DNA from: a bacterium
GTDB taxonomy: Bacteria; Cyanobacteriota; Vampirovibrionia; Gastranaerophilales; Gastranaerophilaceae
Reading direction: 5' to 3'
DNA length: 44,946 nucleotides
Assembly (NCBI GenBank): GCA_017941035.1
Contig: JAGAXG010000016.1
Location: 1 to 44,946, forward strand
The position numbers and the translations under genes were made by a program. Under the pieces are notes generated by a model, which saw only the letters and a list, made by a program, of their open reading frames with translations, made no database searches and had not been told where the DNA came from. Shown one piece after another: positions 27,457 through 44,946 of the stretch (its first letter is position 1; every line of letters begins with the position of its first letter).

Positions 27457-28008
27457 TTATTCAAAATCTAAATTTTTGATATTTTCTATATCGTTTGGAC
27501 TTCCCCAATTTTTATCATATAATTTGTTTTCAACAAATTTATGAAAAGATGAATATACCCAATCTTTTACACATTTTACATATCCGTGTTTTACAGGATT
27601 GTAATGCACGTAATTAATATGGTTATTCAATTCTTCTTGATTTACAATCGTATGTTCATAAAATCGTCTTTGAAATAACCCCTTTTCTCTTTTATTCTTA
27701 TATCCTATTTTTAAATCATCTTGTGAACAAAGGTAGGTTGGGCATACTTGCCCAACATCATGAGAAAAACTATGTTTAACAGATGATATTATTTTTGAAT
27801 ATTCTTTAATATTTTCAGGATTTAGTATCAAATGTATGTGGTCAGGTAAAACACAAATTGCAACAATTTCAAATTTATAATTTTGCATTGTATTTTTAAA
27901 TGCAGTCCTTAAGATTTCAATGTTATCAATAAAAATATGCTTCCTTTCATAACTTGTGATGATTATGTGAACAAAACTGTTTGGAATATAAACTCTATGA
28001 TAATTCAT
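27457..28008 (-). CDS. REP-associated tyrosine transposase (RAYT)
   Basis: HUH-superfamily Y1 transposase-like protein related to IS200/IS605 TnpA, thought to mobilise REP hairpins. Signatures: VLPDHIHLIL (the HxH metal site), LFQRRFYEHTI and the catalytic-Tyr region INYVHYNPVKHGYV. Length 183 is usual. A full REP hairpin (27732-27757) lies inside the gene and is translated as VGQVCPTYL without breaking the frame. A second REP in the opposite orientation is 25 nt upstream of the start. No terminal inverted repeats or partner genes are seen, as expected for single-copy RAYTs. Confidence 0.93.
   Translation of the reverse strand: MNYHRVYIPNSFVHIIITSYERKHIFIDNIEILRTAFKNTMQNYKFEIVAICVLPDHIHLILNPENIKEYSKIISSVKHSFSHDVGQVCPTYLCSQDDLKIGYKNKREKGLFQRRFYEHTIVNQEELNNHINYVHYNPVKHGYVKCVKDWVYSSFHKFVENKLYDKNWGSPNDIENIKNLDFE
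27732..27757 (+). repeat. REP element copy 1, inside the transposase gene
   Basis: GTAG (27733-27736) followed by a perfect 8-bp hairpin GTTGGGCA / TGCCCAAC with loop TACT. The 5' GTAG plus hairpin is the classical REP architecture recognised by RAYT enzymes. Confidence 0.85.
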
Positions 28009-28032
28009 AGCATTATAATATCATAAAGTTAT

Positions 28033-28058
28033 TGTTGGGCAGGTATGCCCAACCTACC
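28033..28058 (-). repeat. REP element copy 2, upstream of the transposase gene
   Basis: Same 26-bp unit as copy 1, with one mismatch in the loop, on the opposite strand. The GTAG precedes the hairpin when read on the minus strand. It lies 25 nt upstream of the transposase ATG, so the pair forms an inverted REP doublet around the 5' half of the gene. Confidence 0.85.
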
Positions 28059-42474: not shown

Positions 42475-42565
42475 TTCTATTTTTTCCTTTTTGCTTTCCG
42501 TCTACCCCTTTCCCTAAGGGTTTTATATGGTAGAAGCGGGTTATTTTGTATTTCTTTTATTTTTT

Positions 42566-42623
42566 CCGCCTGTACAATCACAGATTGCTTCGTTAGCTTC
42601 ATTTGTATCGCTCACAACGGCGG
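42566..42623. repeat. 58-bp hairpin-like element in the rplC-rplD spacer
   Basis: Bounded by CCGCC (42566-42570) and GGCGG (42619-42623), with further imperfect inner pairing. It contains GATTGCTTCGTTAGCTTC, which resembles dispersed intergenic repeats I know from other bacteria. No second copy is seen in this window. Confidence 0.4.
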
Positions 42624-42692
42624 TAATATAATGTTACGTGCTGTTTGCCTTGCTAACGCAAGCCGATCGGCACTTCACACCGACTCACGAAT

Positions 42693-43328: not shown

Positions 43329-43520
43329 AATTTTTCCTTTCCATGCTCATCCTACTTGGTGCAGAATAACTCTGCCTCATTTCGAACTTGCACATTGTCG
43401 CTTGCGAGCGCTACTATTACTTTACCTTGAGGATTTTCACCTCCCGCCGTATAGACGTCGTAGATCACATTATATATGCATAATGCTTATTAAATTTTCA
43501 TTACAGGTCAAAAAAGCAAA

Positions 43521-43838
43521 CTATTTTGCTTCAATATCAACACCTGCAGGCAAATCCAATCTACGAAGCTCATCCATTGTAGCTTGAGTTGGTTCGTATA
43601 TATCAATAATACGTTTATGTGTTCTCATTTCAAAATGTTCACGAGATTTTTTATCTACGTGTGGAGAACGTAAAACGCAGTATATACGTCTTTTTGTAGG
43701 TAAAGGAATAGGACCGGCTACTTTAGCGTCTGTTCTTTTTGCTGTTTCAACGATTTTCTCTGCAGATATATCAATCAATTTATGATCATATGCCTTTAAA
43801 GAAACTCGAATTCTGTTTTTCTTTGTGCTGGTTGCCAT
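43521..43838 (-). CDS. rpsJ: Small ribosomal subunit protein uS10
   Basis: 30S head protein that also acts in antitermination with NusB. Conserved [40 protein letters not shown] and the ending [20 protein letters not shown]. Length 105 is normal. It is the first gene of the cluster, downstream of a near-consensus promoter; tuf and fus are not adjacent. Confidence 0.98.
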
Positions 43839-44098: not shown

Positions 44099-44944
44099 TC
44101 ACTTCACGCAAACCGCCCTGAAGTCCGCGTCGCGGCGGTCGTCGATCCAGTCCGTGCTCGAACTGTTGAAGGTGCGGTTGTACGCGCCGTATGCGCCGCT
44201 ATCTGAACTAGACCACAATTCGCGCCAGGACGAGTCTAAACCGGCAAAAGTTGTGCCTAGTTTGGAAGTGTTTAATGGTGTTGAGTCGTAATAAGAGGTA
44301 TTTCCGATTTGGCTTGGGGCATCATATAAGTAGGTTGCGATTTTTGCGAGGTCTTTTTCTGTTGCTAGGTGACCGCCTGCTTTTTTACATTCTATCATTG
44401 CGTCTGCCCAGCGGTCTTTACCCAAACCGCTTGATGTACAATTCGTACAACAATTCGTTATTCCTGCATCACTCGCATCTTTATTTAGTTTCCAAGTTCC
44501 ATTCTCTTGGGTACAATAATCACTTAAATATAAGCCATCTGGAACATGCGGTTCAGTTAATAAGGTTAAACCTGCAAATTCTATTCCAGCTTTGGCTAAG
44601 CCGGTTACACCAAATGGTACTATATCTTTATTGAATTTATTAGGTCCTTTGGCACCGTTCAAATCATAAAAACCTGCGATACATCTGGTATTTGTTGAAC
44701 GAGCTTCTTTTTTTTGTCCTTTATATTCCACTGCATCAGGATCACTTATTGGACAATTATCTTTATTCATATAAGTTAGTATCATTGGAGTTCCGTCTGC
44801 TAATACAAATCCCGCTGCATCCAAGTATTTTGTTTTATCTATTCCGGTAAATGCTGCCGTTTCTAAATCTTTTACCTTGAATGGCTCTACTCCATCTTGT
44901 TGGATTGTTTCATATGGTAAGCAATTCTTTAAATTATCTTTTCC
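44099..44944 (-). CDS. Lectin-like surface protein with a retroelement-type variable C-terminus, 5' partial
   Basis: At least 281 residues; the N-terminus lies beyond the window edge. The first visible part (KYLDAAGFVLADGTPMILTY, then DNCPISDP) resembles pilin-like proteins in gut Cyanobacteriota relatives, though no prepilin signal can be seen. A Cys-rich stretch (ITNCCTNCTSSG) precedes a C-type-lectin/DUF1566-like domain: RWADAMIECKKAGGHLATEK, then SWRELWSSSDSGAYGAYNRT and the tail FRAVCVK. From about codon 44233 down to the stop, GC content and codon choice change sharply and NNC codons dominate. This fits a variable region written by a diversity-generating retroelement. No reverse transcriptase is in the window. 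Confidence 0.75.
   Translation of the reverse strand, partial: GKDNLKNCLPYETIQQDGVEPFKVKDLETAAFTGIDKTKYLDAAGFVLADGTPMILTYMNKDNCPISDPDAVEYKGQKKEARSTNTRCIAGFYDLNGAKGPNKFNKDIVPFGVTGLAKAGIEFAGLTLLTEPHVPDGLYLSDYCTQENGTWKLNKDASDAGITNCCTNCTSSGLGKDRWADAMIECKKAGGHLATEKDLAKIATYLYDAPSQIGNTSYYDSTPLNTSKLGTTFAGLDSSWRELWSSSDSGAYGAYNRTFNSSSTDWIDDRRDADFRAVCVK
44102..44233 (-). other. Candidate diversity-generating retroelement variable region (VR)
   Basis: The 60-bp line 44101-44160 is 40/60 G+C and 44161-44220 is 31/60, while the surrounding genome is about one third G+C. Codons at 44120-44146 read TTC GAC GCG GAC CGC CGC (as six) then GAC GAC ATC: eight of nine end in C. That is what AAC codons become when adenines at positions 1 and 2 are randomised. 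The invariant end (AGGGCGGTTTGCGTGAAG, 44102-44119) would be the homing-initiation part. Confidence 0.65.
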
Positions 44945-44946
44945 AC

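Follow-up and report, generated by a model that had tools for sequence, protein, structure and literature searches.

Among the well-known means by which bacteria pre-generate surface variety are diversity-generating retroelements (DGRs) and homopolymer phase variation. In the poly-G contingency loci of Neisseria and Campylobacter a G tract lies within the 5' coding sequence and its lengths give ON and OFF frames; we know of none in which the switched gene is also rewritten by a retroelement. The logic of diversifying silent copies before switching is likewise known from antigen-variation systems. Among DGR targets, the TvpA proteins of Treponema denticola are lipoproteins. DGRs with several targets have been described before (PMC4891356, PMC7517822, PMC10907252), and in the TvpA system as many as seven lectin-fold surface targets at dispersed sites depend on one reverse transcriptase (RT) and one template repeat (TR); these targets are described as FGE-sulfatase/C-type-lectin-fold proteins (PMC4891356). 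Cyanobacterial DGRs have remote variable proteins in which C-type lectin (CLec) domains are joined to signalling and kinase modules (PMC7517822), Bacteroides DGRs diversify type V tip pilins (Macadangdang et al., as cited in PMC12632263), and PilB of Streptococcus sanguinis is a modular type IV pilin that carries a fixed vWA binding module (PMC8179133).

The locus studied here lies in the window, a stretch of 44,946 nucleotides that is the entire contig C7 of the draft genome of an uncultured bacterium (G000; 1.8 Mb, 48 contigs), and the best explanation overall, which we regard as likely to be right, is that it holds a target of a trans-acting DGR that writes type IV prepilin-like proteins, many of them with a poly-G ON/OFF tract. 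Similar to TvpA this would be a multi-target DGR, and some T. denticola isolates also have targets with neither RT nor TR; however, here the targets are prepilin-like proteins, with about 40 paralogous leaders, poly-G tracts and 11-12 variable regions (VRs) per genome. As in the cyanobacterial DGRs, many dispersed CLec paralogues appear to be written in trans, but here the CLec domain sits on a type IV prepilin N terminus behind a poly-G leader. Going by the citing paper's account of the Bacteroides system, both cases concern a gut bacterium with a DGR-diversified pilus adhesin, theirs being type V and using the lipoprotein route whereas ours is type IV prepilin-like. The 5' coding G tract with ON and OFF lengths is shared with the Neisseria and Campylobacter loci, and the grafting of a binding module onto a pilin is shared with PilB, except that the module here has a C-type lectin fold and is hypervariable.

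The window holds the 3' part of the target gene (44099-44946, minus strand; 281 codons and a stop), with its coding sequence at 44102-44944, the stop at 44099-44101 and a reading frame that stays open through the contig end at 44946, beyond which the 5' end lies; the next gene downstream is rpsJ (S10; 43521-43838, minus strand). An earlier note on this DNA had pointed to a jump in composition over the last ~45 codons and to a lectin-like C-terminal form of the protein, and both observations hold: over the last 45 codons GC content is 61% and the share of NNC codons 53%, compared with 38% and 16% in the part of the gene upstream, GC rises to 0.60 at 44120-44239 from a background of 0.26-0.47, and the protein ends in WSSSDSGAYGAYNRTFNSSSTDWIDDRRDADFRAVCVK. 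The VR itself (44102-44233, minus strand) runs from after SSW to the stop, and its variable codons are NNC. Searches with the window protein assigned no domain in Pfam or NCBIfam and gave no convincing sequence match in the PDB. In its AlphaFold model pLDDT is mostly 70-94 over residues about 113-281 (44102-44608, minus strand), and VIA-align matches the model to the C-terminal domain of Bdellovibrio Bd2740 (Z 8.6) and to many CTLDs, Lcl and intimin (Z 5-7.4), from which the C-terminal 170 residues are predicted to adopt a C-type lectin fold. In full-length paralogues the N terminus is a type IV prepilin signal, AFTLAETLIALGVIGIIAALTIPSLL, recognised by the class III signal peptide motif (A/G)FTLxE with a hydrophobic helix, and to this signal the N_methyl/GFxxxE models match weakly, below cut-off; in the window gene this N terminus falls off the contig. 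The natural reading is that the targets are modular minor pilins or pseudopilins with a hypervariable lectin tip, and since they are prepilin-like the lectin domain is probably displayed at the surface.

That the VR stretch is no chance feature follows from its matches to 13 further places in G000 (E 1e-14 or better), in open reading frames of one protein family, the window protein as a whole matching 39 places. Eleven copies, the window's included, share one framework (LWSSSE.SA..AY.R.F.SS.T.R....R..S..RAVCVK) and differ at NNC codons, and the VR 3' end, GGGCGGTTTGCGTGAAGTGATTAAT, is conserved in several copies. The framework is lost in two further copies (C41 and C36:46901) and the target at C39:68603 has an internal deletion; escape or decay has thus affected part of the target set. 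The note had proposed an AAC-bearing template, which we found in the congeners G024 (L120 1215-1354) and G020 (C8:46128-46280) and not in the window's own assembly: the congener TRs are non-coding copies of the VR in which the variable codons read AAC, with avd coming after them, and AAC-rich candidate templates also occur in genomes G007 and G005. When the G024 and G020 templates were laid on the core of 10 G000 VRs, with a column counted as variable at a pairwise diversity of 0.3 or more, 31 of 36 columns at template A were variable as against 12 of 78 elsewhere (Fisher p=3.4e-13, a guide only, because the columns are partly dependent on one another). Since the templates belong to other species, this test is independent of G000's own sequence, and it bears out the earlier proposals of a DGR-type VR in a lectin-like gene and of variation at template adenines. 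At several of the variable non-A columns, e.g. in the codon before RAVC, the G000 template probably differs. In G024, the positive case, one TR explains 12 VRs dispersed over the genome, with mismatches at 206 of 468 A positions and 45 of 1101 non-A positions (p=3e-80); in both genomes, then, the differences at the 3' ends are concentrated at template adenines. That 44102-44233 is a DGR-written VR of a target gene is thus well supported. An ordinary GC-rich lectin domain, horizontally acquired with no retroelement involved, would account for the local GC jump and for that alone; it is refuted by the A-site test, by 11 paralogues with A-specific differences and by the congener templates, and its probability is close to nil. 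Nor do we give much weight to gene conversion among paralogues as the source of the VR differences, in the manner of the Neisseria silent pilin copies and without a retroelement: about 40 paralogous prepilin-like genes with long common stretches, and poly-G tracts that could promote recombination, offer material for it, but a mosaic predicts common blocks rather than independent NNC randomisation, the variable columns coincide with A in congener templates, and G024 has template, RT and Avd, all of which makes it highly improbable.

The mechanism favoured by these data is one in which an adenine-mutagenic DGR RT, together with Avd, would copy a single template RNA into cDNA, and this cDNA would be written over the 3' ends of many genes at dispersed sites. 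The AAC-derived codons of the C-type lectin domain, which presumably make up its binding face, would be randomised and the rest homogenised. All parts of such a system are present in G024, which carries RT, Avd, one template and 12 VRs. G020, G024, G005 and G025 (the last with a partial copy) have RTs in which the motifs IGNLTSQ and YVDD are of DGR type, Avd in the congeners is PF22296 bAvd with a score above cut-off, and among 288 genomes of the family, from 41 genera, the RT family occurs in 39 genomes and 13 genera. Most of the best-scoring named relatives of the RT are Candidatus Gastranaerophilales/Melainabacteria MAGs, a few of these under misleading names (e.g. Fusobacterium sp. CAG:439), and at two of the RT loci inspected (L135 and L145) the RT, a prepilin-type target and a TR/VR pair lie on a single contig. 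A phage-borne core was considered and is not supported: the VR framework is absent from the scanned IMG/VR contigs and phage records, and identity to the RT reaches no more than about 45% in its best viral relatives.

The note had further placed the RT and template of the window gene outside the window, possibly at a remote site. A remote site is supported by analogy with G024; in the G000 assembly, of 98.4% estimated completeness, we found neither RT nor template. Searches of it with PF00078, a congener RT and an RT alignment returned no RT, while the PF00078 and alignment searches do recover the RT in G020 and G024; Avd was likewise not found in G000 by a search that found the congener avd, nor was a template repeat of the kind found in G024 and G020. 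In G020 the order is pgm, RT and target, then on another contig TR, avd and rpsJ; the RT adjoins a target in both G020 and G024, and in both the TR lies past the target gene, adjoining avd. The pgm-rpsJ region of G024 is unbroken and contains a single intervening ORF but nothing of the DGR. In G000 pgm lies at the end of contig C36, with a family-type promoter and leader and then a fold-back after it, and the window target and rpsJ end contig C7, so that the window target most likely sits in the pgm/rpsJ slot; because a family leader directly follows pgm, the RT is probably not between pgm and this target. The fold-back itself (C36:108380-108551; L286, L291) is the reverse complement of the pgm end, begins just after the start of the target-family leader, and is probably an assembly artefact.

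The G000 core would therefore lie elsewhere in an assembly gap, or it has been lost. If the species has lost it, the VRs are leftover targets and in effect fossils, as the absence of RT, Avd and TR alike from the assembly, the family leader directly after pgm at the place where G020 has its RT, and the T. denticola isolates with 2-6 targets and neither RT nor TR (PMC4891356) would allow. Continued overwriting, however, predicts what we observe within G000, where mean VR identity at non-A sites is 0.88, above the 0.76 of the 260 nt upstream, and falls to 0.44 at A sites. Reading frames are open in all 11 VRs, and pairs with 89-91% upstream identity differ at 39-58% of their A sites. Moreover, by our own count about 20-30 of the 96 G000 contig ends lie within members of the target family or their leaders, and the RTs of G020 and G024 adjoin a target, where such gaps occur. 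We consider the loss of the core unlikely. The preferred reading is thus that RT, TR and Avd exist in G000 in unassembled sequence; to judge by its appearance, a template still homogenises the VR framework, and the identity contrast and open frames argue, indirectly, for a core that is still active.

A second layer of variation is suggested by the leaders of the family. Promoter, ribosome-binding site, leader and ATG are near-identical in most copies (40 leader matches in G000), and in most leaders a G tract separates the start codon from the prepilin motif, ~30 nt past the ATG, the distance being 30 nt in nearly all. G000 has 16 tracts of at least 10 G, and every one falls within a family leader. 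Among the G000 copies with ATG and prepilin motif both assembled, two, each with 10 G, have the prepilin frame ON, and 10 that are clearly resolved, with 11-13 G, have it OFF, the lengths being approximate since they come from a metagenome assembly consensus with one genome per species; OFF copies terminate after 15-23 codons, and copy C12 may be ON as well. Short broken tracts are in frame at C9:47094 and C10 (the latter with ATA at the start position) and out of frame at C20:26456 and C36:76784. Complete genes with both poly-G and VR are found at C2 and C39:92444 in G000, beside the RT in G020 and on C6 of G024 (8 G). The paralogues thus combine a long 5' homopolymer, varied lengths, and ON and OFF frames, as expected of slipped-strand switching; the poly-G leader of the window gene, whose 5' end lies beyond the contig, is inferred from the family. 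The poly-G layout is repeated in the congeners G020 and G024 and in other genera (L138, L140, L141, L266) with different flanking sequence, and the poly-G genes of other genera do not always carry a VR of the same kind. At L138, L140 and L141 the prepilin-like genes behind tracts of 11-16 G mostly have C termini with no appearance of DGR writing; the switch may therefore be older or broader than the DGR. In addition, some of the ~40 leaders (e.g. C20:26456, C43:19565, C27:1 and C33:381) precede further genes or fragments, and leader and tract may form a mobile or recombining 5' cassette used on several kinds of prepilin.

The tracts could instead be low-complexity sequence, recombination or G-quadruplex sites or assembly length errors, with the prepilin start downstream of the tract, as suits the many copies that are out of frame from the conserved ATG and the uncertainty of tract lengths in a consensus assembly. 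Their restriction to the family genome-wide, the near-identical promoter, ribosome-binding site and ATG upstream of them, the layout kept in the congeners and other genera despite different flanks, and the in-frame broken tracts at C9:47094 and C10, though not those at C20:26456 and C36:76784, make this distinctly unlikely. Phase-variable switching stacked on DGR hypermutation is our best reading of these sequences: slipped-strand changes in tract length would switch each poly-G gene ON or OFF, and the cell would therefore show a changing subset of a changing repertoire. We lean, with some reserve, towards the fuller model of a two-tier generator in which ~40 type IV prepilin-like genes, most of them poly-G switched, include a dozen whose lectin tips are rewritten by one trans-acting DGR, OFF copies being diversified silently before they are switched on.

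It is unusual for homopolymer switching to be stacked on a trans-acting DGR across so large a repertoire of prepilin-like genes, and here both appear to act on the same genes, in a lineage of which few members have been cultured. Our literature search, run outside subscription papers and preprints, returned no report of a DGR in Gastranaerophilales or Melainabacteria, none of a DGR combined with slipped-strand switching and, judged mainly from titles and abstracts, no cellular DGR target with a poly-G switch. The arrangement suggests that silent copies are hypermutated in a targeted way and switched afterwards, a scheme for which no DGR description was found in the literature searched outside subscription papers. 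Arrays such as that of G000 are missed by surveys in which RT and VR must share a contig, a limit stated in PMC8144416. The large pilin-like repertoires of gut Gastranaerophilales may represent adhesins tuned to host, food or phage ligands.

Elsewhere in the window, an RNA family search gave one tRNA and nothing else. An ORF at 27457-28058 (minus strand) resembles a REP-associated (Y1) transposase (MNYHRVYIPNSFVHIIITSYERKHIFIDN...) and is accompanied by a 26-nt inverted repeat, 96% complementary, of which the first arm lies within the gene (27732-27757) and the other upstream of it (28033-28058). Two unusually long non-coding spacers of about 190-220 nt, at 42475-42692 and 43329-43520, separate ribosomal protein genes in the S10 operon.
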